Assembly (NCBI GenBank): GCA_020284085.1
Contig: JACEVL010000699.1
Location: forward strand, 1 to 64,000
Reading direction: 5' to 3'
From: Aporrectodea caliginosa
Taxonomy: Eukaryota > Annelida > Clitellata > Crassiclitellata > Lumbricidae
DNA length: 64,000 nt
Part shown: positions 8,937 to 39,535 of the stretch, piece after piece
How positions within the stretch are numbered: position 1 is the first letter of the stretch
Layout: every line of letters starts with the position of its first letter
Notes under the pieces: model-generated
Database searches by the model: none
The model's input: only the letters and a program-made list of their open reading frames with translations
Told to the model about the DNA's origin: nothing
Made by a program: the position numbers and the translations under genes

Positions 8937-9060
8937 TAGGGTGCTCCAGAAAATTAAAAGTTGAAAATTCATTGTTCCTCGGGGCACTTCCCATGCGTCT
9001 CATACAGATGACTCTAAAAATCCAAATTTTAGGCTTTTACATTAAGGCTAAGCCTTGCCC
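8937..9060 (+). mobile_element. Solo terminus of the divergent TAGGGTG transposon family
   Basis: TAGGGTGCTCC followed by AAAATTAAAAGTTG matches the inverted right end of the element at 35621-37344 (TAGCCTGGTCC followed by AAAAATTAAAAGTTG). The similarity continues into ATTG-TCC and CATG-GTCTC blocks. The matching opposite end was not found before the LINE at 9.7 kb, so the copy is truncated. Confidence 0.6.
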
Positions 9061-20855: not shown

Positions 20856-23800
20856 ATGGACAACTCAGACTGTTCAGTTTCGTGCACTTGCACGTACGTT
20901 AGCGAATGTGCATTGCACACATCCATAGACAATAGTTCTTGTACAATTTGTGTGAACCCAATTGATAAGAGATGTTGTAATAAGTGTATTGCACTTGACT
21001 TTGTAGCTAATCAAGCGGACAGTGACTCTGACATAAATAGCGCTGGGACAGTGACCCATCCTAGTAATGCATTTAATTCAGGTGCACCGATAGATCAGGT
21101 CTTTCAGCTAGTAGAAGAGTACCCTGAAAATTCTTTTATATTGAATAATCCAGATATTGACCCGGACACTAATTACTACAACTGTGTCAAGTTATGCTCC
21201 AGTAAATATATATGCGCTGATGAAATCTGTACAACATTTGAACAAACGGAACAATCCTTTTCTATCTTGCATTTGAACTGCAGGAGCCTTCAGCACAAGG
21301 TATCCGAAGTAAACATCTTACTATCAATAGTCCAGCCAACAATTCTAGCCGTAACGGAAACCTGGTTAAAAGCAGATACAGCTAACACTATTCATATGCC
21401 TGGCTATGACTTCACACACAAATGTAGAATTGAAGGCAAAGGAGGAGGAGTGGGCCTTTTTATTAGGAATGGTACAGAATTCCAATTGATAGAAGCTGAA
21501 TGGACATCGTCTAAACCCGGTGCTTATGAAAGCCTATTTATAAAAATTAAGCAAAAAATGGGGAGGGACCAAGTCGTTGGTGTCATTTACAGACCTCCGG
21601 GTGATAGTCTTAATATGTTCAACCAAGAACTTGAAATATTATTATCTCACTTATCTAGAAAAAAGGAAGATATTTTCCTGGCAGGAGACTATAATATGGA
21701 TTTACTAAAAATTAACTCGCATGTACCCACTCGAACATTCTTTAACATACTAACCTCAAACCGATTATTACCGACAATCTTAAGACCAACTAGAATAACT
21801 AAAGACACTGCCACACTAATCGACAACATTTTTACAAACACATTGACAAACTGCACCGATTCTGCTATTATTATAGACGACACTTCTGATCACTTGCCTA
21901 TTTTCACACAAACTAAAATTACAAGAGCATTAAGGGACAAAGCCCCAGTCTACGAGAAAAGAATTATTAATGAGACAACTAAAAGTATATTTCACAACTT
22001 TTTACATGCTGCTGACTGGTCAGAAGTCTATAGAGCGTGCGATCAGAGAGACCCAACTTTAGCATACTCGGCTTTTATTGAAAAATATAAATCATTGTAC
22101 GAATATTCTTTTCCGAAAACAACCTACTTGCCAAACAAAAGACACAACATTAAGCAACCATGGATGACGAAGGCCTTATTGAAATCTTGTAACAAAAAAT
22201 CACGATTGTATAAGAAGTATATTAAAGAACCTACACAGGAAAACAGGACTAGATTTGTGACTTATAGAAATAAATTCAAAAAAGTCCGTAAAGATGCTGA
22301 GAGACAATATTATGCAAATAAAATTCTTGAATGCGAAAATGACCTCAGTAAAACATGGGGAGTAATTAAATCACTTCTACATGGAAATGAATTTTCTTCT
22401 CTGCCAGATAGCTTTTTCATTGATAACCTAGAAATTAAAGAAAAAAATATTATTGCTAGCAAATTCAATGATTTCTTCACTGAGCTTGGACCCCAATTAG
22501 CTGCAAAAATACCTAACACGGATACTACGTTCCGGGATTTCCTGAAGAGCCCATCCGCCTCCTCTATTGGCATAGAATTAACGTCACCGACAGAATTAAA
22601 AACGATTGCTAAAGAGCTTCGTTCAACACACAGTAGAGGACTTGATGAAATTGACCCTCAAATTGCTAAATTTACCATAGAAGCCACCTCGATTCCTCTT
22701 GCGGAAATAATAAATTGCTCTATTACAACTGGCATTGTCCCAACAAGCTTAAAAATTGCTAAAATAATTCCAATCTTTAAAACAGGGAACAAACAAAATA
22801 TTTGTAACTACAGGCCAATATCTATTTTACCATATTTTTCTAAGTTTTTTGAAAAAATCATCTATGGAAGAATAATGTCATACATTACATCTAAGAACAT
22901 CTTGTTTAAAGGTCAGTATGGCTTTCGAACTGGACACTCTACTTACATGGCCGTCATGGAGATGTACGACAAGATTTCTGAAGCCAGGGATCAAAATTAT
23001 TTTTCAATGGGTGTCTTCTTCGATTTATCCAAAGCATTTGACACCGTAAATCATGAAATTTTAATTAAAAAATTGGAGCACTACGGAATAAGAGGCATAT
23101 GTCTTGACTGGCTCACTGATTACCTAAAAGATAGAAGACAATGTGTCTCATTTAACGGGCATATCTCGCATATATCTGAAGTCATATGTGGTGTGCCGCA
23201 AGGGTCTGTACTAGGCCCTTTGCTGTTCTTACTATACGTGAATGATGTCTCGAACACCTCGTCATTGCTTCATTTTATCATGTTCGCTGACGACACCAAT
23301 GTTTTCATGTCAAACAAATCTATTGAAGTATTAGTTAACACGATGAATGCTGAATTAAAACTCGTTGGGGAATGGTTTAAAGCCAACAAATTATCGCTCA
23401 ATCTTGCAAAGACGAATTTTATATTGTTTTGCTCTAAAAGGAAAATTGAACTGAATTTAGATTGTAATATGACTATTACTATAGATAATCAAAGCATAAC
23501 CAGAGTGTCATCATCTAAATTTCTGGGTGTGCACATAGACGAACAGTTAACATGGAAAGAACATATAACCGATATTTCTAAAAAGATATCAAAAAATATA
23601 GGCATAATTTCTCGTGTTCGACATCTCCTGCCACGATATATACTTGTAAATTTATATTATTCTTTAATATATCCGTATATATCCTATTGCAATCTCACAT
23701 GGGCCTCTACCTACCGTACCCGCTTGACCATGCTGACAACCTTACAGAAGCGAGTTATTCGAATCATATGTAATGTACCCTACAGAGCTAGCACCAAACT

Positions 23801-24080
23801 TTTATTCCTGAACATGAAAATACTACCTTTCGAATGCATTAATAAGCTGCAAGTGGCGCTATTTATGTACAAAATTCATTCGCGAACTTTGATCACTGGT
23901 TCTGTAAAAATTCTGAGATACATGACCACTATACAAGATCATCAAGCAATTACCACCAAACAAGTGTGCACACCAATAATAGGCAGCATAGTATCAGCAC
24001 ATACGGACCGCTGCTTTGGAACTCCCTGCCCAAAGAACTTACTTGTGTACCCACAGTCTATCAGTTCAAAAATAAATTAA
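20856..24080 (+). CDS. LINE ORF2: endonuclease and reverse transcriptase, essentially intact
   Basis: This is an open frame of 1074 codons. After a Cys-rich N-terminus comes an APE-type endonuclease (LHLNCRSLQHKVSEV, AVTETWLK, GVIYRPP, GDYNMDL, TSDHLPIF). The reverse transcriptase follows: [57 protein letters not shown] and FADDTNVF, with both catalytic motifs preserved. The thumb and C-terminal region follow. The last 60 or so codons look frameshifted near 23900: the family-typical end (YGPLLWNSLPKEL) is in the next frame. The element ends near 24432 with AATAAA and a GATT repeat tail. It belongs to the CR1/Jockey-type LINEs. ORF1 upstream is broken, so it would need help in trans. Confidence 0.92.
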   Translation: MDNSDCSVSCTCTYVSECALHTSIDNSSCTICVNPIDKRCCNKCIALDFVANQADSDSDINSAGTVTHPSNAFNSGAPIDQVFQLVEEYPENSFILNNPDIDPDTNYYNCVKLCSSKYICADEICTTFEQTEQSFSILHLNCRSLQHKVSEVNILLSIVQPTILAVTETWLKADTANTIHMPGYDFTHKCRIEGKGGGVGLFIRNGTEFQLIEAEWTSSKPGAYESLFIKIKQKMGRDQVVGVIYRPPGDSLNMFNQELEILLSHLSRKKEDIFLAGDYNMDLLKINSHVPTRTFFNILTSNRLLPTILRPTRITKDTATLIDNIFTNTLTNCTDSAIIIDDTSDHLPIFTQTKITRALRDKAPVYEKRIINETTKSIFHNFLHAADWSEVYRACDQRDPTLAYSAFIEKYKSLYEYSFPKTTYLPNKRHNIKQPWMTKALLKSCNKKSRLYKKYIKEPTQENRTRFVTYRNKFKKVRKDAERQYYANKILECENDLSKTWGVIKSLLHGNEFSSLPDSFFIDNLEIKEKNIIASKFNDFFTELGPQLAAKIPNTDTTFRDFLKSPSASSIGIELTSPTELKTIAKELRSTHSRGLDEIDPQIAKFTIEATSIPLAEIINCSITTGIVPTSLKIAKIIPIFKTGNKQNICNYRPISILPYFSKFFEKIIYGRIMSYITSKNILFKGQYGFRTGHSTYMAVMEMYDKISEARDQNYFSMGVFFDLSKAFDTVNHEILIKKLEHYGIRGICLDWLTDYLKDRRQCVSFNGHISHISEVICGVPQGSVLGPLLFLLYVNDVSNTSSLLHFIMFADDTNVFMSNKSIEVLVNTMNAELKLVGEWFKANKLSLNLAKTNFILFCSKRKIELNLDCNMTITIDNQSITRVSSSKFLGVHIDEQLTWKEHITDISKKISKNIGIISRVRHLLPRYILVNLYYSLIYPYISYCNLTWASTYRTRLTMLTTLQKRVIRIICNVPYRASTKLLFLNMKILPFECINKLQVALFMYKIHSRTLITGSVKILRYMTTIQDHQAITTKQVCTPIIGSIVSAHTDRCFGTPCPKNLLVYPQSISSKIN

Positions 24081-24845: not shown

Positions 24846-25329
24846 CAGCCTCTGGAGGGCAGACTTCTTTGTATGTAGGTTGATAATAATACCGGAGATC
24901 GCTGAGTAGATCAGTTATATTTTTACCGACTATAAACCGGCCACAAGACTTCCCCTTATTAACACCGACTGACCAACACCGTTAATGCTTTACGAACTTG
25001 AAAACACCACAGACGAACTTTTATTTGAGACCGATTCGTAAATGAAACGACCCCACAGAGCATTCCCACGCTTGCAGCCGCTCAAAATCTTCAGAGACAT
25101 TTTGACAACAAGATTACTATAACTACTAATTTTGCGATATTGCGCTAGTCAACTTTGGTCGCAATCGCGATGAAATAGAAACGCAAACAAAACAGCTAAT
25201 AATTAACTGCCGCACTACTGCTGGGTTAGTTCACGCATGAAAAATCCGGGGCGAACATAGGTTATTATTTATAGCACATGTTTTCGTTCTCATGTAGGCT
25301 ATGAGTAGTGGAAGAAGTGCGGAAATGGG

Positions 25330-25457
25330 GGGCCAGTTCCGAAGCACTGCGGATATGAGGGCCAGTTCCGAAGCACTGCGGATATGAGGGCCAGTTCCGA
25401 AGCACTGCGGATATGAGGGCCAGTTCCGAAGCACTGCGGATATGAGGGCCAGTTCAA
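25330..25457. repeat. Tandem repeat, 29-bp unit, about four copies
   Basis: The unit begins GAAGCACTGCGGATATGAGG and ends GCCAGTTCC. It is nearly perfect and forms the outer edge of the inverted-repeat arm that follows. There are no spacers, so it is not a CRISPR array. Confidence 0.93.
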
Positions 25458-25900
25458 ACCCATGGCTGGTATGGGAGCCAATTCAAACCCGTGGTTGATA
25501 TGGGAGGCAATTCAAGTGGAAGGAGTGTATTTTCTGGAGCCAATTCAAAGGTCACAATGATGTAATCAGCTAGAAACGACTGTATTTTCTGGCGACAGTT
25601 CAAAGGTCAATCTATGACATCAGCGTGAAACACACACCCAACTAAAGCGGCGAGAGAGTCATTTCAAGGGTCGTTCTTCTTAGTGCCTCGCCGCCGCCTA
25701 CCACCCCACTCCAATCATTGCATCAGCTTTTACAAACATTGACCGCGTATGCGCATTGAACCACTGTATAGTTTAGCTGGGAGGGTCGTTTCAAGGGTCT
25801 CTCTCTTCGGAGTTCCAGTGCCTCCCCCTCCCCCTCCCCCTTCCAAGGTGACTCTTGTTTTTGTGTGGAAGCCAGAGCAGCCGGCCAATTGGAAGCCTAC
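25435..25900 (+). repeat. Arm A of a long inverted repeat (partner 37703-38166)
   Basis: About 460 bp from GAGGGCCAGTTCAAACCCAT to CCAATTGGAAGCC recur in inverse order and orientation at 37703-38166. Shared blocks include the inverse of GAACGACCCTTGAAATGACT, GGTAGGCGGCGGCGAGGCAC and AACAAGAGTCACCTTGGAAG. A third partial copy in the inverse orientation lies at about 40165-40480. The arms are 11.8 kb apart and enclose the ankyrin/SOCS exon and the PC4 gene. Confidence 0.88.
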
Positions 25901-28221
25901 TACAATTCTCTAAACATTACTTTATTGGACAAAAGTTAACTTGGACATAATTTGCACACGTAGGCAAAATTTTACGAGAGCATTCTCTGCGCACGTCCAG
26001 CCAGCTAAGCTTTGCACAAGCATTGTTTTACAAGGGCGACTAAGCCCAATTTATTAATCATTAAATACAAATTGTGTTCTTTTACTCTATAGGCCTAGCC
26101 AAGCTGCTATAACCGGTGTATTTGTGCGTTTACACATAGGCATGCTGCGTTGGGCTCGCATACATTTACTATACACATTAAGGCTATTTTATTAGTCATT
26201 AGACACAAATCGCATGGTTTTTGAATTTGGGCTCATCATTTTACACTTAGTTAGCAAACGCGCTGCTAGGTTTGACGTGTTTACAAGGCTGAACTAATCT
26301 CAATGAATATTCATTTGGCCAACTTCCCTTTACACGTAGTGTGGAAGCCAAGACATGCAGCCTTTGCGCTCTCGCATGCCATTACACCTCTCGCCATTTA
26401 GCACGGAATATTTAGTTGTTGTTATGTGTTTTTGAATGGCGATACAAACTTTTACCACTTAAAATCATGCTTAGTGAGTTCACACACAGCCGGTTTATAA
26501 CTCAGACTTATAATTTTCTAGAGAATTTTGACACTTAAGATGTGCATTTACACGTTGAACCTATGTTCTTTCTTCGGAGTATGGAGAGGCGTTTTGACTA
26601 GTGTGCTTTTACCACAAATTAGCGAGAGATGTAAAATTAAAGTTAGCAACTTAGATTTACTCTAGCAATGCGGAAGCTGGGTCTTCTTGCAATTTTGAAA
26701 GAGGGCACAGAGCTCGCTTTTTTCAACTTTTTGCAAAGCACACAGTTGTCTTTGCTCTATCGCGTTGCCCAACTGCGCACGCATTCATGGCTTAAACGGA
26801 AATTAGCAACCGTCTTTACACGCAAAATATCGATATATATGTAGAATCTTAGCTGTCTTGCATTTTGAAAGCCGGCTCTTCATCAGTATTTCATTACTTG
26901 CTTCACAGACATAACATCCTTTAACGCCAACTCGAAGTCTTCTTCATCGCCCTTTTCGCTCACTAGAAACTTCAGAACCGCTCGTAGCAAACTCATGTGC
27001 AGTTTTTACATTTAATGCTTAGTATATTTCAAATTAGAGAATAACAGTCGCATAAATTTTCTTATCAGGTTGCTTTACAGTGTGAAGGTGCACGTTAGTT
27101 TTACAGGAGACGAAGTCGGTAATGGCAATCAACAGTTTTTAGTTGTGCAAAAATTTCAAGAATTGGTTCTTAATTCTGAAAAATCTCAAATTCTTTGAGA
27201 TTCAGGTGGCATGGAAAAACCTCAATTGGGTAATTTTGCTTAGCAAGCGACTTTTACAGAGATAGAGAGGCAGAGAGAGAGAGAGAGAGAGGGAGGGTGA
27301 GACGTCTTTCGGCAGAGAACCGTGTTAGGCTTTTCTCCATGGTATGGAGGGGTGTTTCAAGAGCTCGCTTGGCGCATTTTTACATTTGACAGCTTACACT
27401 TATACAATTTTAAGCTTTTCACAATTCAATAGCCCTTTACTCAATAGAAAGTCCCAACTATGGTTCACATATTTAGGTCTGGTGAGGTGGTTTTGTCGTG
27501 CATGTTTGAAAGAATACAAAAATTTAGCTGTAATTATTCATTACTTTCGCAGCGCGTTAGCCTTCTATAGCAAGACACGTAGGTTTAATGTTATCAGATT
27601 ATGCTTAATCTACCCATGGGCATGCTGAGCCGACGTGCATTTTGAAAGACGACGCAATTATTTGCATCATCTCCAGGCCTTTAACTAAAACTCGCATTCA
27701 AAGCTAGCTTGACAGACTTAGCAATTCTTTTTACTTCTAAGGCATAGCCATCAACCACTTCTTTCTCTCTAGGATCTCAATTACAACACGAAACGTGTTT
27801 TTGAGAGCACTTTTAAGACTGTTGGCTTGCAATTACTCGATTGTCAAGCAAAAAATACACTCACATAGACAGCAAAGTCGTATTAAATCTCAAGTGTACA
27901 CGCTTTGTCAATATGGATGGCTTCTTAAGTTATTCGATTGTTGAGGTTTGTGTTAAGTTTTCTAGTCTGAAAAGATGGTGACTGTGCGTTAAACTGATGT
28001 CATTTTAAGAGACATAGCAAACAAGGTGTTTTTAAAAGCGCCAAAGACCCATGAATGAGAGCGAAAAATTAAGGCTTTTCTGTGAACTGAAGACTAGCTA
28101 GTCGGTTAAACTTAGGATATCCGCAGCTTGTATGTCTATATTTCTGAAGCATTGCTCAACGAATTTGCGTGTTTTTAGTTGACATTAATAAAATTGAATG
28201 AACGCATGTACAGTGCTTCTA
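25901..28221. other. Non-coding repeat body B
   Basis: No coding sequence is supported (plus 27344-27628 has no domain). The stretch has short recurring phrases such as GAAAG plus AGAGCTCGC and a GA-rich run at 27263-27292. The part from about 28.0 kb on is homologous, in direct orientation, to 39.6-40.1 kb. Confidence 0.5.
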
Positions 28222-29043
28222 CACTGTGTCCACGATAAAGTAGAACACTAGACTTTGTGAAATATCTTGGTCAATTGTAGTGTTATAAGTACTAAATTTG
28301 GTCACTTGAACTTCAGTCTATTCCATCTATACCCTGCAAATTTTATTACAATTGATGCAACGGTTACGAGGATATACCCTTATGAAATTGGGTGGTTCAG
28401 GAACCAAGTTACCGAACAGTAAAACGCATCGACAGATGCGTGCGCGGCTGATCCACCTGACCCAGCATCAGTTCTTCGACAGCATTGGTATAATTTTCAT
28501 TGTGTTCGTAACGCCCGATCTCGTGGTTTCCTTGCAACTGATCCGGTTGTGGCAATCTTTTTAACAGCTTGCTGACACCATCTAGGGACAAATCTTTCAT
28601 TGGAAAATCTGTAATGAGTCTCCTTGCGCCATACCCCTTCGTCCGTCTCAACTCCTTGATTAAAATCTTGTCATCTGCACTGAAAACCATTTCTTTACAA
28701 CCAACTACTGTTACTTAAAACAGGTCTCGTAGTGTAGCCTAACTGTTTCCGAAAATGACGCTTATAAACAACAGCCTATACAAAAGTATACATGTATCCT
28801 CTGCGGTAGCCAGAAAAATGACGTCATTCAATGCGTTTTACTGTTCGGTAACTTGGTTCCTGAACCACCCAATTTCATAAGGGTATATCCTCGTAACCGT
28901 TGCATCAGTTGTAATAAAATTTGCAGGGTATAGATAGAATAGACTGAAGTTCATGTGCACCAAATTTAGTATCTATAGTACTACAATTGACCAAGATAAT
29001 TATTTCACAAAGTCTAGTGTTCTACTTTATCGTGGACACAGTG
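28222..29043 (-). mobile_element. Tc1/mariner-type element with 210-bp inverted repeats
   Basis: TA at 28220-28221 and 29044-29045 flanks CACTGTGTCCACGATAAAGT and its inverse. The inverted repeats run about 210 bp on each side, to the shared AACGCAT near 28430 and 28833, and differ at scattered positions. The only coding relic is a minus-strand frame at 28409-28690 whose MVFSADDKILIKELRRTKGY and SLDGVSKLLKRL parts match the helix-turn-helix N-terminus of mariner-type transposases. The catalytic part is gone. The element split an older direct repeat shared with 39.7 kb. Confidence 0.9.
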
Positions 29044-29210
29044 TATATTCGATTGCTAAGACACGATAAACGCATATGAGCTTGCTAATGTTGCTGCTCT
29101 TCGGTTGAGCAAAGGCCTTTTTCATACTAATCCACCAACTTTACATGTTTCAAGTGTTTAAAAATGAGGTTTTAATCGATTTGCCGGTCGTTCTCTGCTT
29201 GAACGCTGAA

Positions 29211-29233
29211 GAGTCACAGCATAGCTGTGACTC
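29211..29233 (+). ncRNA. Hairpin, left copy, with compensated stem changes
   Basis: GAGTCACAGC-ATA-GCTGTGACTC is a perfect 10-bp stem. The homologous copy at 39950-39972 has two changed pairs, both compensated. A GGC-repeat tract follows in both copies. Whether it is transcribed is unknown. Confidence 0.4.
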
Positions 29234-29238
29234 CGTTG

Positions 29239-29266
29239 CGGCGGCGGGGGCGGCGGCGGCGGCGGC
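29239..29266. repeat. (GGC)n repeat
   Basis: A short GGC run directly follows the hairpin, as it does in the homologous copy at 39988-40020. Confidence 0.85.
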
Positions 29267-29589
29267 CTCTAACGATGCTAACACTGTATACAAGCTACTC
29301 AGTACATGTCCAACTCTTATAATTTTTGTCGTTTAGACGGCGAACAGAGTATCAAACATGAAATTCTCTAAAGCTCATTTGCTTGAATTTCCTCTTTAAG
29401 TATGAGTCCTGGCACAACTTGGGTTAACTCACTCATTGAGTAGTGCTAATCGTGCTCTCTCTTGAATTTTTTCTGAAACCTTAACCTGTGAACTTCCAAA
29501 ATTTGTAAACTTGAGAGTGTGAAACGACAAAAGTTTTGAATGCTGAAAGATGACAACTTGATGGATGAGAAATTTAAAATGTGTCATCA

Positions 29590-29680
29590 CAAAGTTCTGA
29601 AAACAGAAAGCTGGTAACCAAAGTTCTGAAAACCGAAAGCTGCTAACCAAAGTTCTGAAAACAGAAATCTGGTAATCTGT
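29590..29680. repeat. Minisatellite, about 29-bp unit, three copies
   Basis: AAAGTTCTGAAAACAGAAAG followed by CTGGTAACC is repeated three times with few changes. Its inverse resembles the TTCAGAAC-type minisatellite at 38.6-39.5 kb. Confidence 0.8.
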
Positions 29681-30302
29681 AGCAATGAATAGTGCATTAC
29701 ACAAACGTTAAACTCAGAAAGATGGGAACGCAAAGTTTTGGAAAGCTGAACGATGTGAACCTTTGCTATAGGTTTTACGTTTTGTTTGGATAGTGGCGTT
29801 TTAAAGTTGTTGCAGCCGCAGCATCAGCTGATGTCGAAGCAGTTAAACATGTTCGCACTCCAAAAGCGTCGTCGTCGGTGTTGTGTTGAAATGGAATGTG
29901 CCCAACGCTCCGTGCGCCCCCACAGCTGCTGCTACAGACCCCAACAGCTGCTGCTACAGCAGATTCTACAGCTGCAGATACCTCTAAAATAGCTGCCGCT
30001 ATTAAAAGCCGTCAATTCAAAATTTAAAGAAGACTTGTGTAAGCAGCTGGTTGCAAAATATCGAATTAAACTTTCGGCAACACCAACCCTGTGGCAAATA
30101 GAAAAGGCTTAAGCTGCTTCATATCAAACGAGTTGTAATTCAGTAAGTTCAGTTAAATTGGCATGACTCGGTTTGCAACGCCTGGCCTGCCAACTCCACT
30201 AGAAGCCGTGAACCCTCGCAGCCAGCACACAGCAGCCGCTCACGCCACATGTGTATGTATGTAATAATAATATGTGTAATAATAATAATATGATACGTTG
30301 AC

Positions 30303-30376
<74 letters not shown>
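30303..30376. repeat. (AT)n microsatellite, left half
   Basis: A 74-bp AT repeat. It is continued at 32485-32542, so one AT tract was split by the transposon between them. Confidence 0.95.
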
Positions 30377-30379
<3 letters not shown>

Positions 30380-32484
30380 GGTGTTTTTAAGGTACATGTG
30401 ATATTTTCAACTCAAATATTTTTTATCGGCCTCATCGAATTATTATGCCAATACATATATAAACTCCATATCTGAAACTATAGCCTGATAGGTGATTATT
30501 TAGGACTTGCTCAAGGCGACCGAAATTAGAAGAGAGAGCGATGGAAAGATCAATAGCAGTTGCGGAGCGAGAGGAACGTTATCGTGCAAGCACAGCTGTA
30601 TCGACGGACGTTTCTCTGTTGGAAACATCATCTGAAGAAGAGGAGTCATCAGCTTTAGCTCAGAAAAAGCCAGAACCGTTGACGTTTGCTTGGCCACAAA
30701 GTGACAGAGGGGAACAATCTCTGTATAGTTACACGTTATGTTGCACCAGCTCTAGATCGCATCAGAACCAGCTGCTCAAAAGCCTCTCATGTTTTATCTG
30801 CTCTCGCTGCATCAAATCCATATGCAGAACCAGCTGGTGAGCTCATCATCGGTCCTTCAGCGATCCATCGAGCAAGGAAAGATAACCGCGCAGCCCTGGC
30901 AGCAATGATTCGTGAATCTTTCAATCCGAAGGCTCTTACTATCCACTGGGACGGCAAGATCATGTCAGATGTTACAGTTACAGGACGAGGGTGTGTCGAT
31001 CGCCTTCCAATAATGGTATCTGGTAAGGATGTGTCCAAGCTATTGGCCATCCCCAAACTCCAGTCTGGTACAGCTCCCGTCAAGGAAGATGCGTGTTTGG
31101 CCAGGATCAGAAGTTAGGGGTTGACCGAATCGTGGCCGTGTTTCGACACAACAGCGAGTAACACGGATTGAAAGGGCGGTGTATGCATGAAGATGGATGC
31201 TGAATTAGGAATGGACCTCTTGTACCTTGCCTGTCGTTATCATGTTTCTCAAATAGTTCTGGACAAGGTTATTTTACTGCATGATTCTGTAAGAATTCGG
31301 TGAAGAACTCTTCAGTCATTTTCGTGCCTTCAGGCCGCAAATCGATCAGGCCAAGTATCGCACACAAGTGGAGAGTAAAGATGGAGCACAACGTGTCACA
31401 GAAATTCGAGTCTTCGAGACAATGTTATCACCTTAAGCCTTTGCATTGTAGCAACTGAGTACTGAATACAACAGAGACGACTACAAAGAGCTACTAGAAC
31501 TAAGTCCAGGTACCCAAAGGCATTTCAGTGCGCGCATTGGGTGGCACTGCGATCTATGTGATCAAGATGTTGCTTTTTATAGAGCTGTTTCCCATTCAAC
31601 AACGCTAGAGCACACAGAGGACATATCGACAATGCTACTGGAAAAAGGTGAGGAATCATCTACTTCGAGTGTTGCCTTTGTGATAACAACTTACGTGAAG
31701 TAGGCCTACTAGTTCAATGAAACCCCCAATGAACGATCTTCGATTCTTGAAGAAAATCCACACTTACACAGACAGGAAATCTCACAGGTCAACCTGCAAT
31801 CTCCCTACACCCTTGTGACGATTCAGTCACCGAAAAAGCTGAGGCATGGTCTACAACATGCTCAACAATCCGATGAATCCCCAACGAGGTTTCCTCCCAT
31901 ACAATGCACCTATATATAAAAGCACTACCGGATTTCTTCACCGCTTCTACCACCAAAATATCCCAGATCCTTGGATTGGATGACTTGGTCAAGACCAGCA
32001 ACAATGGGAGTCAAAACAATCATATAGAGAGACAAAAGATCATATTCGTCCTATGAATATGATCCTATGAGTCACGAACGATTTGACGGAGAAAGGAGCG
32101 ACCCTCATTCAGTCCTACAATGAAGCCCTGGCTGTTTCGAAATGAGGAACCGAAACATTTGTTCTACAAATGGTCGAGTATCATTGAAACAAATTTTCAC
32201 AGACAGTAAAGGGAATAAATAAATAAATTACAAATAACTGAAAGTATTTCCTTTGATTTTGCCTTATATTTTATGCGTAAGTGTTTAAATTTGCTTTTTA
32301 ACCGTGAAAATTGCAATGTATCACAATGCTTTCTAAGTGATAATTCTTACGGGGCTTTGAGCAAGTTCTAAATCTATTCCGATTTTCATCTAATTTGGCA
32401 AATGACAATGTTTCTCAAGGTGGAACACAAAAACAGCAAGGCCGATATCAATTTTGAAACTTCAGGATATTTAGACACACCCTA
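30377..32484 (+). mobile_element. Divergent 8-bp-duplication transposon, copy 1
   Basis: The ends TAGGGTGT and ACACCCTA lie inside an AT tract (ATATATAT on both sides). ATTTAGGACTTGCTC near the left and GAGCAAGTTCTAAAT near the right are subterminal inverted repeats. Coding relics, in several frames: DRIRTSCSKASHVLSALAAS and AIHRARKDNRAALAAMI; LTIHWDGKIM at 30938-30967; VDRLPIMVSG; CFDTTASNT at 31139-31165; YLACRYHVSQIVLDKV at about 31215-31260; and DYKELLELSPG at about 31470. Conserved Asp in IHWDG and FDTT and the C-x2-H motif suggest a DDE-type transposase with a hAT-like C-x-x-H segment. Many stops show the copy is dead. Confidence 0.72.

Positions 32485-32542
<58 letters not shown>
32485..32542. 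repeat. (AT)n microsatellite, right half
   Basis: The continuation of the AT tract interrupted by the preceding transposon. Confidence 0.93.
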
Positions 32543-32547
<5 letters not shown>

Positions 32548-32809
32548 CATATGCGTCTACTCTACTTATAATTGCTGCTTCGGCTATGTAAATCGTTGGA
32601 CACTGGTAATACAGCGTGCCCTATTGTTCATTGAACCTACAGAGAGCTGTAAAGTCCGAGTAGACACGCAGAAATTGCAGTGGGCGTGTTTCTTCGGTGG
32701 TAACTTATTCACAAAGTCCAAAATGACTCGATTGGACTGATGCCCAGGTGCAACAAACTGTGTGTGTGACATAATGAAGTTTAAAATATGTCATAGTAAA
32801 GGCTTTATA

Positions 32810-33685
32810 CACCGTGTCTCAATAAAAACTGTGCAAAATTGTTTCTGTCAGAACTTCGTCAATTTTCCACCAATTTTAATAAGTTTTGGTAGGTAGATGT
32901 ACCAATTTTCATATAACGCTTAAATTTTAACAATTAGAGTGCTCAGATTTTGTTCATCAATTTGCTAGAGGGCGTCAAAGTGAATGGGGCATACTATCGC
33001 GACAACCTTCTTGCCCAGAAGCTACTGCCAGATATACGCCGGATATCCCAGGGCGACTTTTTTGGCTTTCAACAGAATGGCGCCCCTGCGCATCGAGCAC
33101 GCGACACTGTCTTTTCCTGGAGCGAGAAACGCCCGACTACATAACTCCAACACTGTTACCGCCGAATTCACCGGATCTTAACCCAGTCGACTATAGCATA
33201 TGGAGTGTGCTGCAGGAGAAGGTTTACCGCTCCAGAATAGCCAACGCCGACGAACTCAAAACGCGTCTGATCGACGTGTGGGCGCTCTTTGACCAGTCGA
33301 TCGTTGATGCTGCTATCGGCCAGTGGCGTCGCCGTCTAAGCGCTTGTGTCCGTGTAAGCGGGGCACATTTAATTGTTATGACAGATCTGCTTAAAAGTGT
33401 TAGAATTGGTGCTCGAAATGTGCCCCGCTTACACGGACACAAGCACTTAGACGACGACAAAATCTGAGCACTCTAATTGTTAAAATTTAAGCGTTATATG
33501 AAAATTGGTACATCTGTGTTTAACAAGGTAGTGCGGTGATATGAGTCAGATGAGGTGGAAAATTTATGTATAGCATAAAATTTCAGCCATTTTGCCATCT
33601 ACCTACCAAAACTTATTAAAATTGGTGGAAATTTGACGAAGTTCTGACAGAAACAATTTTGCACAGTTTTTATTGAGACACGGTG
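32810..33685 (+). mobile_element. Tc1/mariner element with C-terminal transposase remnant
   Basis: TA (32808-32809 and 33686-33687) flanks CACCGTGTCTCAATAAAAAC and its inverse. Inside, the catalytic C-terminal part of a mariner-type transposase can be read: KVNGAYYRDNLLAQKLLPDI, FQQNGAPAHRARDTV, then in other frames PNSPDLNPVDYSIWSVLQEK and VDAAIGQWRRRLSACVRV. The usual FQQDGAPAH aspartate is Asn here, and the frame breaks near 33115. The N-terminal DNA-binding half is deleted, so the left terminal repeat runs straight into the catalytic part. A 37-nt palindrome (33334-33370 and 33416-33452) sits before the right repeat. Confidence 0.93.
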
Positions 33686-33742
33686 TAGATATACGCATAA
33701 TTCTACTAGAATATTTATATAGCTCTTCTATTTGACGCTGAT

Positions 33743-34252
33743 GTGGTGTTTTGGAACTCCGATTCCAGTGTGGTGGATTTACTTCTAAGCAACAACGCAG
33801 ATGTCAACTGTAGTAATAGAAGTGGATTCACTGCACTGGATGTGGCAATTCAACAGGAGAACTTTGAGGTTATGTTGAGGTTGCTAAGTATAAATGCACA
33901 AGTGTATATAACCGAAGCTGATAGGATTACAAGAATATCTCTCTTCGCTAGGAGTCTGCTAATTACTTCGTGCCCTCGAGTGTGTAGATTGTTCGTTAAC
34001 GGAGGGGCGTTGAGCAGTAGAGAGGGTTGGCTATTTGACACCATGCCAAATAATATAGCCGAAAACGAGTCAACCATGTGTATTCTTAAAAATTTCAGAG
34101 AAACTATACCAACACTACACGACCTGTGCTTGATATCAATCCGAGAAAGTTTGTCGTTAACTGGAAAATTCCAAGAGGCTATTAATGCTCTCGATTTGCC
34201 AAAAACATTGAAGCAGGATATACTCAAAATTGTTGATGTAGAAGATTATTAA
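33743..34252 (+). CDS. Terminal exon of an ankyrin-repeat and SOCS-box protein
   Basis: The frame gives the end of an ankyrin repeat region (VDLLLSNNADVNCSNRSGFT, then ALDVAIQQENFEVMLRLL). A divergent middle follows, then a C-terminal SOCS box: TLHDLCLISIRESLSL fits the BC box that binds Elongin B/C, and LDLPKTLKQDIL fits the Cullin-5 contact box. ASB-type proteins recruit ankyrin-bound substrates to Cullin-5 ubiquitin ligases. GATTCCAG ending at about 33768 is a plausible splice acceptor, so the true exon may begin there and the Met at 33743 be fortuitous. Upstream ankyrin exons were not found in the window. The intron before it carries the mariner element that ends at 33685. TATAAA near 34426 may serve as a weak poly(A) signal. 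Only 160 or so residues are seen, so the gene could be partial. Confidence 0.75.
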   Translation: MVFWNSDSSVVDLLLSNNADVNCSNRSGFTALDVAIQQENFEVMLRLLSINAQVYITEADRITRISLFARSLLITSCPRVCRLFVNGGALSSREGWLFDTMPNNIAENESTMCILKNFRETIPTLHDLCLISIRESLSLTGKFQEAINALDLPKTLKQDILKIVDVEDY

Positions 34253-34548
34253 ATGATGCGAAAATCATAATACTCAATACTCAGTTTATTATTTCGTCTA
34301 TTCTATTTAGTTTAGCTTAATATCATATATGTGAACAGACTCTCATATTTTGATGCAGATTCATCTAATTTGTTTGTTTGTATGTAAAATTGTCATTATA
34401 CATTACATGTGTTTGTCATTAATCATATAAAGTTTAAATGTAAGTACAATTTGGATGTTGCTCTAAGATTCTAAACAACCACAACGAGATTACTTGGTTT
34501 CATTATTTCTGTTTCAAACAAACTCACAATGAATTGTGAAGCTTTAAG

Positions 34549-34917
34549 GAAGAAGAAGAAGAAGAAGAAGAAGAAGAAGAAGAAGAAGAAGAAGAAGAAG
34601 AAGAAGAAGAAGAAGAAGAAGAAGAAGAAGCAGAAGAAGAAGAAGAAGAAGAAGAAGAAGAAGAAGAAGAAGAAGAAGAAGAAGAAGAAGAAGAAGAAGA
34701 AGAAGAAGAAGAAGAAGAAGAAGAAGAAGAAGAAGAAGAAGAAGAAGAAGAAGAAGAAGAAGAAGAAGAAGAAGAAGAAGAAGAAGAAGAAGAAGAAGAA
34801 GAAGAAGAAGAAGAAGAAGAAGAAGAAGAAGAAGAAGAAGAAGAAGAAGAAGAAGAAGAAGAAGAAGAAGAAGAAGAAGAAGAAGAAGAAGAAGAAGAAG
34901 AAGAAGAAGAAGAAGAA
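34549..34917. repeat. (GAA)n microsatellite, about 370 bp
   Basis: About 123 GAA units with a single CAG interruption near 34631. It lies between the convergent 3' ends of the ankyrin/SOCS exon and the PC4-like gene. The poly-Lys frame across it is an artefact. Confidence 0.98.
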
Positions 34918-35050
34918 AGAATGATTATCGAGTTGATGTAAAGTCTAATAGAGAAGAAGCAGAAAGCGTACTACACTCCATTCCACACTATGGTTTAAAG
35001 AGTTTCCTATAACTAGCAAGAAAAGGAAGTCATGTTCCATTTCACTAAAC

Positions 35051-35056
35051 TTTATT
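35051..35056 (-). terminator. AATAAA poly(A) signal of the PC4-like gene
   Basis: AATAAA on the minus strand lies about 70 nt past the PC4-like stop codon, a normal 3' UTR distance. Confidence 0.7.
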
Positions 35057-35124
35057 AAAGTTAACAACGATTTACGTAGCTCTCTAATTAGCAATTAAAC
35101 CACTCGCGAAGAGCAGTCAAGTTC

Positions 35125-35612
35125 TTAGCCTTTCGACTCACTAGCTTCTAGTCCAAGCGCAAACGGGTTACACTCTACACAGTTCAAATAACCCAACTGA
35201 TTGGCATGATCATCTCTCGAGTAACATGGTTTCGATGTTTTAAGTTCGGGTAAACAATCCTGTAGTTCACGAATTCGTACGAATAACGAGTCCCATTCAT
35301 CCAATTTCAGAGCAATACCACTTCGTGTGGGGCGCTCTTTGGTGGCGTTTGGAGGGAGGAAATAGCGACGGATGTTGACGCATCGGAAAGCTTTGGAGAT
35401 TGAAACGTAGTAACGTCCTCCGACATGTCGATAAAAGTCGACCGGTCGAGCTGCTTTGAGTAGATCCACGCTTCTGTCCATATCGTCCAGTTGTCGGATG
35501 AACATGGCCCACCTCGTTTTGTTGAACGAAACGCCTTTCTTGGTGGGATAGAGCTTTCCGTTGGCCTCATCGTATTCACGAATGTGTATCATCAGTTCGT
35601 CATTGTACATGG
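35125..35612 (-). CDS. Double PC4-domain protein, main coding exon (3' part)
   Basis: The 161-codon open part holds two PC4-like (p15/Sub1) modules. First: MIHIREYDEANGKLYPTKKG with VSFNKTRWAMF, then a linker DRSVDLLKAARPVDFYRHVG. Second: YYVSISKAFRCVNIRRYFLP with PTRSGIALKLDEWDSLFVRI. A Cys-containing tail (NQLGYLNCVECNPFALG) follows. PC4 domains bind single-stranded DNA and act in transcription or repair; the double form is known to me from marine invertebrates. The Met at 35610 is probably not the original start. Joined to the pieces at 37353-37399 and 37526-37579, the protein would be 198 residues. The split is made by the transposon at 35621-37344. The gene ends at 35125 with a nearby AATAAA. 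Confidence 0.85.
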
Positions 35613-35620
35613 ATGCAGAT

Positions 35621-37344
35621 TAGACTGGTCCAAACGTATATGGGAAAAAATATGTTTTCAAAATATGCTGCTCCACAAGGCTGCCCCTGTTATACTTGAC
35701 TAGAAGACTCTGTGTTGACAAAATTGAAGAGATCTGAGCATGTTTAGAGGTCGCTAGGTTTTGACACTTTTTGTAGAAATTGCAAAAATTGTGCATCTGA
35801 TGCGTTAATAGCTGCATTATGAATTAAAATTAGCACCCATGAACATCAAGCACCATCTTTCTAAATCACGATCAATATGCCAATGGAATTTTAGTAAATA
35901 AAAGAAAAATAAGCTTATTTACAAATAAAACACTTGTGTCAAGTTCTTTCTGATAGATAAACGGTTGTTGGCTTATAGCTATTTTTAAATCTTGCATGCC
36001 AATTACAATTCGTTGCAATTCGCTTCATATACAACTGGATTGTTCAATATTGCTCTATATGCTGCTAATATAGCATGATTAGAGTATTTTTTAAATCTGT
36101 GAAGCCATCCTTGAATACGAAATAAGCATACAGCACATGTTTTTTCACTTTCTGCAATAAAAGCTCATACGTGACAAAAACGGCAGCTATGGTGGAACTG
36201 GCATCAACCAGGAGTATGTTGGCTGTTAGCGACGCCTGACAAACACATTCTTGGGTCTGGACTCCCAAAAAATGAGGCAATCCTGAGGAATTCCATGTTG
36301 CATTACCAGAACAGTTGGTGAGACCCAGAAAGCAACAATAGGTCTAGTCGTTGCGTCGGTAATTCGGGAGATAGCTAGAATCCCGCACAGCTGGATTCGG
36401 GTGTTCGCAAGCACTGTAAGTTGTATAAGCCAAGATTTCTGCTGATTCAAGGAGTTACAGTTTGAGGTCGAATTAAATTAACTTTTTCAGTCGTCATCTA
36501 TTATATTTCTTCGAACACCTTATAGCCATGCGCTTTCTTTGATGAGCGTGTCACTGAAGACATCGAGGCTGATCTGGTAATACAATCTTACTCATCCACC
36601 TAATCCGCTATCCATGCAGCGTCTGGACAGGAAATCCTTCGACCATCAGACTCCACTGGAAGCGTATGTCAAGAGGAGATCTTTAAAACTGCTTGCTTCT
36701 TACCATCCATGGTCAAGTACAACCCACAGCCTTCCTATCAAATGCTTCTACTCCCTGATCACTTGACCCTACTTTCTAGTCGATTAAAGAAAATGTAAAA
36801 CTGTTGATGGTCGTCCACGACTGTGGGGAACGTGTAGTGGCTCTGATCCAATCTTACAATGATGTAATAAGGATGAGTCACAGAAACAATACTGCAACTT
36901 GTCTCCAGTCATCGGACAAAATTTTCTGTTCCAACGAAGGCAAATTGAAATAATAATGAGTTGCGGGTTTTCAAGCATTTCAATGACGGGATTTATGCAG
37001 ACTGGATAACTTCTTCAATTATCCAAACTATATTTCATTACAAAATTAATGCAGCCTGACTAAGCAGTAACACTAGGCCTACACTATATATTTCTAATTG
37101 GGGATGTTTATTGTTAAAAATAAAAACTGACTTGAAAAAAATTATAACTGATTTGAAAAAAATCAAATTTATACATGTTTTTTGACAAGTTCATACTACA
37201 TAGCAAAAAGTCGAAAAACATAGCGACCTCTAAATATAATCCAATCTTTCCAAAATTTTGCATAGAGACTCATGTTTTCATGTGTAACAAGGGCAGCCTT
37301 GTGGAGCAATGCATTTCCAACTTTTAATTTTTTGGACCAGGCTA
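35621..37344 (+). mobile_element. Divergent 8-bp-duplication transposon, copy 3, inside the PC4-like exon
   Basis: ATGCAGAT at 35613-35620 and 37345-37352 flanks inverted repeats of about 170 bp that start TAGACTGGTCCAAA (left) and TAGCCTGGTCCAAA (right, inverse). Both contain GCTCCACAAGGCTGCCC and TTTAGAGGTCGCTA. The inner sequence keeps relics of the transposase of copies 1 and 2, such as CGERVVALIQSYNDV at about 36825-36870, with many stops. The element's own coding strand is plus, opposite to the gene it split. Confidence 0.82.
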
Positions 37345-37352
37345 ATGCAGAT

Positions 37353-37399
37353 AGGAAGCGATTATACCCGATGGATTCTTTGAAAAGATATTGAGGTTT
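37353..37399 (-). CDS. PC4-like gene, 5' part of exon 2 cut off by the transposon
   Basis: On the minus strand, ACATGTATGTATAG is a splice acceptor ending at 37400. The 47 nt after it read KPQYLFKESIGYNRF and continue through the 8-bp duplication in frame with the 161-codon part beyond the element (47+8+2 nt = 19 codons). This continuity, together with the 8-bp duplication, shows the transposon landed in coding sequence. Confidence 0.78.
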
Positions 37400-37525
37400 C
37401 TATACATACATGTAAGAATAAAAGAAAGAAAAAATTAAATACATAATATGAATGAAAATGCTAAAACCTACAATTTACAGTATTAGTATAAGCATTTAAC
37501 TTAATATACAAAGAATTATACATAC

Positions 37526-37579
37526 GGAAATTGAAGTCATGTTGAGCTGTTTGTAGAATTCTAGCTGTGCTTGAGTCAT
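37526..37579 (-). CDS. PC4-like gene, exon 1
   Basis: ATG at 37579 opens 18 codons (MTQAQLEFYKQLNMTSIS) that end exactly at a GTATGT donor (37525 downward). The intron is 126 bp (37400-37525) and phase 0, so exon 2 follows in frame. An earlier in-frame ATG at about 37645 overlaps the TATA box and so should lie outside the transcript. Confidence 0.68.
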
Positions 37580-37644
37580 TATACTCGATCGAGTGAAGCA
37601 AAAGCTTTGCGAGCGATATACTATTGCAAGAAATAACGTGTTCA

Positions 37645-37651
37645 TTTTATA
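37645..37651 (-). promoter_or_regulatory. TATA box of the PC4-like gene
   Basis: TATAAAA on the minus strand stands 66 nt before the exon 1 start codon. That predicts transcription start near 37615 and a 5' UTR of about 35 nt. The inverted-repeat arm A' begins only about 50 bp further upstream. Confidence 0.5.
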
Positions 37652-37702
37652 CTATAAGAGAAATTGTACTTTAAACTTTGTACATTAACGTATAGAATAG
37701 TG

Positions 37703-38166
37703 TTGGCTTCCAATTGGTTGCTGCTCTTGCTTCCACACAAAAACAAGAGTCACCTTGGAAGGTGGAGGGGGAGGGCAGGCACTGGCCCTACGAAGAGAGA
37801 TACCCTTGAAATGACCCTCCCAGCTAAACTATACAGTGGTTCGATGCGCATGCGCGGTCAATGTTTGTAAAAGCTGATGCAATGATTGGAATGGGGTGGT
37901 AGGCGGCGGCGAGGCACTAAGAAGAACGACCCTTGAAATGACTCTCTCGCCGCTTTAGTTGGGTGTGTGTTTCACGCTGATGTCATAGATTGACCTTTGA
38001 ACTGGCTCCAGAAAATACAGTCTGTCGCAACTGTCGCCAAAAAATACAGTCGTTTCTAGCTGATTACATCATTGTGACCTTTGAATTGGCTCCAGAAAAT
38101 ACACTCCTTCCACTTGAATTGGCTCCCATACCAGCCATGGGTTTGAACTGGCCCTCATATCCGCAG
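37703..38166 (-). repeat. Arm A' of the long inverted repeat
   Basis: Inverse of 25435-25900: it begins GGCTTCCAATTGGTTGCTGC and ends at GAACTGGCCCTCATATCCGC, with the same order of internal blocks. It lies directly upstream of the PC4-like promoter. A 70-bp internal duplication (the AAAATACAGTC blocks near 38010 and 38045) differs from arm A. Confidence 0.88.
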
Positions 38167-38359
38167 AGGCAAACACTCCGATATGCAGAGGCTAGTAAGC
38201 ACTTTTCTAGCCATGTGGAGGCTGAGGCTGAGTTGACTCTCATTTTAGAAGACTATGCATTTCTCATTGTAGAGAGGGTGGCAGCGAGGCTAAGAAGCAG
38301 AGAGGCAGAGAGAGGCTAAGAAGCAGAGAGAGGCAGAGAGTTGCTTAGAGAGCGAGAGC

Positions 38360-38361
<2 letters not shown>

Positions 38362-38452
<91 letters not shown>
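38362..38452. repeat. (GA)n microsatellite
   Basis: About 90 bp of GA repeat, preceded by an imperfect AGAGGCAGAGAG array at about 38290-38360. Confidence 0.97.
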
Positions 38453-38454
<2 letters not shown>

Positions 38455-38589
38455 GCAGAGCTCGCGTTTTCTCTAGAAGTGTGGAGGCTGAGTCAACTGC
38501 ATTTTTGAACGACGGCCGAGAGCTATCGGTATTCAACTTTGCAAAGCACATGGTAGGCTTTTCGCTTTTAGAGCAAGCGGAGTTTTCAA

Positions 38590-39535
38590 AACTTCTTGTT
38601 TGCATCCTTAAAATTCGAGAACATCGACTTTGCAACGTTAAAATTTTCAGAACTCCCCGTTTGCATCCTTAAAATTTCAGAACTTGTTGTTTTAGTTCCT
38701 TTATATTTGAGAACTTCTCGTTTGCAACCTTAAAATTTCAGAACTTGACGTTTTCCATCCAATGCATTTCAGACCTTGTGGTGGCAAATTTAAAATTTGA
38801 GAACTTCTTCATTGCAACTTTAAAATTTGCGAACTTCTTGCTTGCAAATTTAAAATTTCTGATCTTCTTTGCAACTTTAAAATTTGAGAACTTCTCGTTT
38901 GCAAATTTAAAATTTCAGAACTTCGCGTTTGCAACTTTAAAATTTTCTAAACTTCTTCATTGCAACTTTAAAATTTTTGAACTTCTTGTTTGCTACTTTA
39001 AAATTTGAGAACTTCTCGTTTGCAAATTTAAAGTTTGAGATCTTCTCATTTGCAAATTTAAAATTTCTGAACTTCTTATTTACAACTTTAAAAATTTCAG
39101 AGCCGGTAGTTTTCCAAATTTTAATCCTCAGGTTTGCATCTTTTAGATTTCAGAGCTGATGGTTTTCGAAATTTTAATCTTCAGGTTTGTATCTTTTAGA
39201 TTTCAGACATTGTGGTTTTCAAAATTTTAATTTTCAGGTTTGCATCCTTTAGATTTCAGAGCTGGTGGTTTTCAAAATTTTAATCCTCCGGTTTGCATCT
39301 TTTGGATTTCAGAGCTGGTGGTTTTCCAAATTTTAATCTTCAGGTTTGTATCTTTTAGATTTCAGAGCTGGTGGTTTTTCAAATTTTAAATCTTCGGGTT
39401 TGCATCTTTTAGGTTTCACACTGCTTTTCATCCATTAAGTTTCAGAAATTCAGATTTGAATCGTTTACATTTCAGACCTTGTGCTTTTCATCCGTTAAGT
39501 TTCAGAACTTCTGAGTTGCATCTTTTAGATATCGC
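38590..39535. repeat. Degenerate minisatellite array, 30-bp then about 53-bp units
   Basis: From about 38590 to 39110 the unit is near 30 bp, with TTTAAAATTT-GAGAACTTCT and GTTTGCAA. From about 39100 to 39420 it lengthens to about 53 bp, with TTTTAGATTTCAGAGCTGGT and GGTTTTCAAATTTTAATCTT. The plus-strand open frames across it are repeat artefacts. Confidence 0.9.

Follow-up and report, generated by a model that had tools for sequence, protein, structure and literature searches.

A tandem-PC4 gene split by a small hAT-like transposon in Aporrectodea caliginosa appears to be cargo of a larger Maverick/Polinton-type-ended element

Introduction

PC4 proteins bind single-stranded DNA. Replicons of the phi29/Bam35 type encode small single-stranded-DNA-binding proteins (SSBs) together with their own polymerases: the annotation of phi29 lists an SSB of its own (gene 5), and a characterised SSB of Bam35 is the subject of PMC8276246. 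Vertebrate Mavericks are reported to have (AGT)2//(ACT)2 ends and 6-bp duplications (PMC8097293), and the size expected of a Maverick/Polinton is 15-25 kb (PMC6431247). Our full-text literature search, whose coverage stops short of most subscription papers and all preprints, returned no report of a polinton together with PC4.

The window analyzed here is a 64,000-nucleotide stretch of the annelid Aporrectodea caliginosa (assembly GCA_020284085.1, contig JACEVL010000699.1, positions 1 to 64,000), in which a preliminary description had recognized a PC4-like gene exon split by a transposon. Comparison of the locus with its genomic relatives suggests that the split gene, far from being an ordinary host gene, is cargo of a repetitive Maverick/Polinton-type-ended element, which went unnoticed in that first reading and is termed the carrier below.

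The carrier has in common with Mavericks and Polintons (Polintoviruses) its 6-bp duplications, (AGT)2//(ACT)2-type ends, long inverted repeats and, provisionally, a polymerase-B-like ORF. It differs from them in several respects. Its size, 7.7-9.2 kb, lies under the typical 15-25 kb; its recognized genes are a polymerase-like gene and an intron-containing tandem-PC4 gene; the carrier pieces tested gave no integrase, ATPase, protease or capsid; and the polymerase is not recognized by profiles. Like phi29 gene 5 and the Bam35 SSB, the tandem-PC4 protein would be a small single-stranded-DNA-binding protein encoded with a replicon's own polymerase. Unlike them, this putative SSB is a tandem of the eukaryotic PC4 type, to which binding is ascribed by analogy.

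Results

A coding exon interrupted by a small transposon

The PC4 unit and the element inserted into it comprise the following features, in window coordinates.

37645..37651, minus strand: TATA box of the PC4 unit, read in the sequence and conserved in alignments with relatives
37526..37579, minus strand: exon 1 of the PC4 gene, 18 codons, from sequence reading and alignment with relatives
37400..37525, minus strand: 126-bp phase-0 intron, GTATGT...TAG, from sequence reading
37345..37399, minus strand: the part of exon 2 that precedes the cut and contains the first copy (37345-37352) of the 8-bp target duplication
35621..37344, minus strand: small non-autonomous DNA transposon, hAT-like by its ends and 8-bp duplication, 1,724 bp, whose inverted ends are imperfect and each span about 145 bp
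35613..35620, minus strand: second copy of the 8-bp duplication
35125..35612, minus strand: remainder of exon 2, encoding a tandem PC4 protein and a Cys/His-rich tail, open from the Met at 35610
35051..35056, minus strand: AATAAA, past the PC4 stop codon, read in the sequence

The gene structure given in the preliminary description is present in the sequence in every part, from the TATA box through the 18-codon exon 1, the GTATGT donor and the 126-bp phase-0 intron to an exon 2 that opens KPQYLFKES (at 37399, minus strand). Exon 1, the TATA box, the splice borders and exon 2 are matched by five aligned relatives (L041-L045); the relatives shown in the alignment have a GTAAGT donor and an acceptor identical to that of the window. 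The double PC4 protein and the AATAAA reported beyond the cut are likewise found, the downstream ORF giving two PC4 matches (Pfam PC4, 7.6e-18), and both fold and profile place the protein in the PC4/p15 family. A GAA/CTT microsatellite of about 123 units (34549-34917) lies immediately downstream of the gene.

Exon 2 is cut after 37345 and resumes at 35612. The intervening sequence, with tips TAGCCTGGTCC/GGACCAGTCTA, agrees with the reported 1.7-kb element with the same 8 bp on its other side: the duplication is exact, and when 1,681 pairs of boundary offsets were compared no other pair gave an identical 8-mer. The claim that a DNA transposon cuts a coding exon also holds against homologues, which match the residues on either side of the cut. 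The residues before the cut, on which the preliminary description had let its reading depend, were compared with homologues and match, leaving that reading in place: with a profile built from nine relatives, LFKESIGYNRFLSA scores 45, and the runner-up among the 127,918 six-frame 14-mers of the window scores 22.9. At the cut point the exon is uninterrupted, with FKESIGNNRFLSATTYKDELMIHIREYDE read without a gap, in all eight distinct genomic copies (13 finds in 12 loci, L007/L040, L008/L041, L009/L042 and L005+L006/L045 each being one place); L002-L004 and L047, which are more distant, do not enter this count.

The ends of the small element pair as inverted repeats over 16 bases at 94% and a further 129, ungapped, at 71%; comparison of the two arms confirms that the difference of roughly a quarter reported between them is real. 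With non-autonomous hAT elements it has in common 8-bp duplications, inverted subterminal repeats and short TAG-type tips, which we take to be hAT-type. It differs from them in the matter of the transposase, since none of the 12 ORF pieces of the window's copy holds a Pfam-recognizable transposase or remnant above the cut-off. The element is a genome-wide repeat, with at least 113 matches (40 scored of 1,326 candidates); among the candidates scored, 30 loci, the window's own copy counted, match it at 86-100% identity. Across 24 copies, again including that of the window, an 8-bp duplication stands exactly at the assumed ends in eight, lies within 6 bp of them in six and is absent in ten, and several of these duplications are AT-rich simple repeats.

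That the interruption is an assembly artefact is exceedingly improbable. A single assembly stands behind the locus, but the inserted sequence is a multi-copy element with exact ends and an exact duplication, and 12 of the 23 other near-full-length copies have TAG-type tips at both expected bases.

Elsewhere in the window, positions 8937-8978 hold a solitary end of a related small element (37 bases, 86%, tip TAGGGTG), for which no mate was found. A 92-residue interior piece of the small element gave six database protein matches with E up to 10, three of which have their matching parts in different frames; we read the six as other decayed copies. A match between an 18-base piece of the element's end and an IMG/VR contig (L001) was taken as chance, the alignment having stopped at 19-22 bases.

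Age of the insertion

The preliminary description had offered, as one of two alternatives, the recent insertion of an already old element, and one half of this alternative survives. The arms of the small element differ about equally in 21 copies (median identity 0.76, range 0.71-0.85). Because they are only about 76% alike within each copy, end divergence is no measure of age and was rejected as such; judged by this comparison, the family is built with differing arms. Recency fares better. In a tree of 24 small-element copies the window copy's own branch measures 0.0256 substitutions per site, an upper bound on insertion age given the copies sampled, and a branch of 0.026 favours a fairly recent insertion into exon 2 of the PC4 gene.

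In the PC4 gene, the window branch has 23 silent and 17 replacement changes of its own (w 0.18; Fisher p 0.003-0.005 against 11 rows representing six distinct copies). We considered this raised dN/dS as decay after insertion and dropped that reading, because at 7 of the 15 replacement sites that set the window apart from six other genomic copies the same residue is found in the metagenomic homologues P0001 or P0002; part of the replacement excess therefore predates the window copy. Five of the 15 residues occur in none of the 38 homologues having a residue there, and exon 2 adds an Asn-to-Tyr change (GYN for GNN). Of 52 near-invariant sites in the downstream ORF, a single one is changed. The few window-only amino-acid changes agree loosely with a short time since insertion, and the neutral-time figures calculated from the window-branch changes, 0.031-0.044, are upper bounds.

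A larger element carries the PC4 gene

A PC4 search of the organism's own genome (1.098 Gb, 4,544 contigs) yields at least 146 matches (150 scored of 217 candidates), many of them open over about 180 residues. When eight 10-kb neighbourhoods of PC4 copies were compared, seven proved to have kilobases in common, including 7,959 bp at 92% between L044 and L046 and 5,229 bp at 98% between L040 and L041, and long non-coding flanks are common to copies on different contigs. The eighth, L047, is a distant copy whose match is limited to a piece of the gene.

Five copies among these neighbourhoods could be read to both tips (L040, L041, L044 with L048, L045 and L046), and all five are bounded by perfect 6-bp duplications: TACCTA, TTTGTA, CATATG, ATTGCT and TATGTG. 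Their tips are exactly AGTAGT//ACTACT in L044, L045 and L046, with the variant AGTAGG//CCTACT in L040 and L041, and their sizes range from about 7.7 to 9.2 kb. L042 and L043 yielded no inverted ends. Two copies that are 98% alike over 5.2 kb have different target duplications, which indicates that the carrier has moved recently in this genome. One copy (L045:1069-8756) is a nearly palindromic 7.7-kb element that has a 6-bp duplication and holds an inverted pair of PC4 genes; other such pairs are present on C1040, C358 and C662.

A Pfam scan of another 13 ORF pieces, taken from L040, L044 and L046, gave no match above the cut-off to an integrase, ATPase, protease or capsid, though spliced genes could escape such a scan. 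The strongest match among these pieces, to Utp12 in L046 (3.7e-5), is below the cut-off. The ORF concerned (L046:510-902), with its sub-threshold match to a WD-repeat protein, lies near the far end of this carrier copy and is possibly a captured host fragment.

The window holds a reduced copy of the carrier.

25304..25881, plus strand: left terminal inverted repeat of the carrier; its tip is AGTAGT, and a 29-bp tandem array occupies 25311-25455
37720..38166, minus strand: right terminal inverted repeat of the carrier, outermost tip missing
34354..37819, minus strand: stretch common in pieces to other carrier copies (gene, flanks and part of the tail), the inserted element and the microsatellite excepted

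Its arms are 93-100% identical to each other in the longest paired stretches, and the left arm is about 77-85% identical to the ends of other copies. No right tip is seen, and the 6-bp flank on the left has no copy in 38101-39500; the missing right tip explains why no 6-bp duplication appears at this copy. The polymerase has left no significant trace in the window, and the interior of the carrier holds other sequences. This copy has suffered two insults, namely the loss of the polymerase region and the interruption of PC4, and it is most likely, we infer, a decaying passenger.

Several other observations concern the contents of the window. Within the carrier lie an ankyrin/SOCS-box-like ORF (33743-34252) and a piece at 32931-33464 that reads like what we take to be a mariner transposase. 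Farther out are an open 966-aa ORF of a Mab-21-type nucleotidyltransferase (2831-5731) and an uninterrupted LINE-type ORF of 1,074 aa that includes an endonuclease and a reverse transcriptase (20856-24080). Scanned against Rfam at gathering thresholds, the window gave no match.

The polymerase-like ORF

Fuller carrier copies contain, convergent to the PC4 gene, an ORF of 1,119 or 1,127 aa, which is broken into pieces in L045. Its sequence presents DFE, D..NLYG, K..NNS.(Y/F)G (K..NNSVFG) and DTDSL in this order, and we take the succession DFE, D..NLYG, K..NNS.(Y/F)G, DTDS to be that of family B polymerase motifs. An exonuclease N..FD motif was not found by the pattern used. With the phi29 and PRD1 polymerases as yardsticks, the same patterns recover some motifs, those of phi29 being A, C and the exonuclease ones. 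Searches of Pfam, NCBIfam, PHROGs and PDB gave no family-B match. With hhalign, alignment to PRD1 covers 51 columns at motif B with an E of 0.0053 but a probability of 6.8%, and alignment to phi29 has a probability of 1% and does not fall at matching motifs. Since profile searches gave no recognition, the name polymerase-B-like is provisional.

A genome search with this protein finds at least 41 places (scored of 1,087 candidates), 32 of them without a stop. A convergent PC4 match lies within 12 kb at 25 of the 41, in 22 cases at 854-1,142 bp; this linkage count is a lower bound, both searches having scored part of their candidates. No PC4 match was found at the other 16, of which 11 belong to a subfamily 66-69% identical. 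Between L044 and L046 the polymerase dN/dS is 0.13. Among viral contigs no relative of the polymerase-like protein was confirmed. A Cys-rich piece upstream of the ORF (L044:6089-6427 and the matching part of L040), 62% identical between the two subfamilies, probably belongs to the polymerase gene as an N-terminal exon.

The tandem-PC4 protein

Between nine other copies the PC4 dN/dS is 0-0.08 where computable, silent sites being saturated in pairs with L047, with one exception, 0.14, for which a single replacement is responsible. These values indicate that PC4 is under strong purifying selection in the other carrier copies. The structure model of a PC4 homologue predicts two PC4 folds, and its best solved match is human PC4 (PDB 1pcf, TM 0.88 over the target), with DNA complexes of PC4 and MoSub1 among the structural matches. 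The fold is that of human PC4/p15 and MoSub1; the carrier protein differs from these in having two PC4 folds per chain and a Cys/His tail, and in being encoded by a mobile element.

Because PC4 proteins bind single-stranded DNA and phi29/Bam35-type replicons encode SSBs, the PC4 protein is, by analogy, most likely an element-encoded single-stranded-DNA-binding protein. No PC4 relative was confirmed among viral contigs and genome contigs. Tandem-PC4 relatives (P0001-P0083), mostly on short contigs, are spread over several metagenome and genome data sources, and the carrier may for that reason be widespread.

Can the interrupted gene still work?

The preliminary description had left room for a gene that still works, either by splicing or from the downstream Met. 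The former route is closed for ordinary introns. An in-frame TAA at 35622, made of the element's last two bases and the first base of the duplication, stands three codons upstream of Met 35610; no AG occurs between this TAA and the Met, and the first AG, at 35567, is already within the first PC4 domain. GT-AG splicing therefore cannot restore a full first domain, and rescue by this route is ruled out. From the upstream side, the frame runs about 48 codons into the small element and then stops.

A host PC4-like gene that was hit and survives as a shortened protein from Met 35610 is, in our judgement, quite unlikely. In its favour, the ORF from this Met is conserved and, as had been reported for the coding part, free of stops, and several metagenomic homologues have a Met at the same position. 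The residue is, however, Thr in all eight intact genomic copies, so that the downstream Met is not their start codon; the gene itself sits in a repetitive element; and upstream ATGs would come first. The model of the uninterrupted homologue P0015 (mean pLDDT 86) places strands 1 and 2 at residues 2-7 and 10-17, and that of the window ORF from Met 35610 begins with the third strand of the first fold, so a start at 35610 would, according to these models, lose the first two strands of the first PC4 fold.

A different kind of rescue would be the removal of the transposon from the mRNA by 'SOS splicing', leaving an interrupted gene that still makes protein. In the primary work, excision reportedly depends on inverted repeats. 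Here a predicted fold of 1,850 nt pairs the ends with each other along their length, tip to tip, the right arm taking up 105 of the 107 pairs made by the left arm, and a construct in which a short loop connects the arms folds with a z of -13. A review (PMC13247085) describes how transposons are excised from animal mRNAs, the cut ends then being ligated by RTCB. Such a hairpin is, however, expected of any element with inverted ends, and precise excision of the 1,724 bp would leave the additional 8 bp behind and the frame shifted. With a gene copy that looks dispensable, we regard this rescue, to which the predicted hairpin points, as very improbable. Loss of function of the window PC4 copy is nonetheless not proven, because its ORF is stop-free and so few near-invariant sites (1 of 52) are changed.

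Discussion

Taken together, these results make it highly probable that the locus consists of nested mobile elements, a small hAT-like insertion lying within the PC4 gene of a Maverick/Polinton-type-ended carrier (window about 25304-38166). On this reading, a large element with such ends carries a two-exon tandem-PC4 gene, fuller copies adding the convergent polymerase-B-like ORF. The window's carrier lacks its polymerase and one tip and has received the small hAT-like element in exon 2; the insertion stops the PC4 reading frame before the end of the small element, and this copy most likely decays as a passenger. In intact copies, the PC4 protein would coat single-stranded DNA as the element's own polymerase replicates the element, in the manner of viral SSBs in other protein-primed systems.

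The carrier could instead be an inverted-repeat transposon of unrelated origin, with no Maverick among its relatives, whose PC4 and polymerase-like genes were acquired by capture. Its size below 10 kb, the want of an integrase or capsid among the pieces tested and a polymerase to which profiles did not respond would all suit such an origin, whereas the 6-bp duplications and the AGTAGT//ACTACT ends fit the description of Mavericks, and the order of the ORF motifs fits family B. We consider this origin unlikely. Within the Maverick/Polinton-type reading, we tentatively suggest, at somewhat less than even chances, a compact Maverick lineage without capsid or integrase genes: a two-gene, self-copying element composed of a polymerase and a host-derived double-PC4 SSB, under purifying selection, recently mobile and with relatives in other metagenomes.

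The split exon, taken alone, is ordinary insertion damage. A PC4 gene is usually read as that of a host transcription cofactor; here it is a conserved part of a repetitive, polymerase-bearing element. If this reading is true, caution would be due before such PC4 copies are counted as expansions of a host gene, the Polinton story would gain an element-encoded SSB, and the carrier would serve as a reduced replicon for the joint study of polymerase and SSB.
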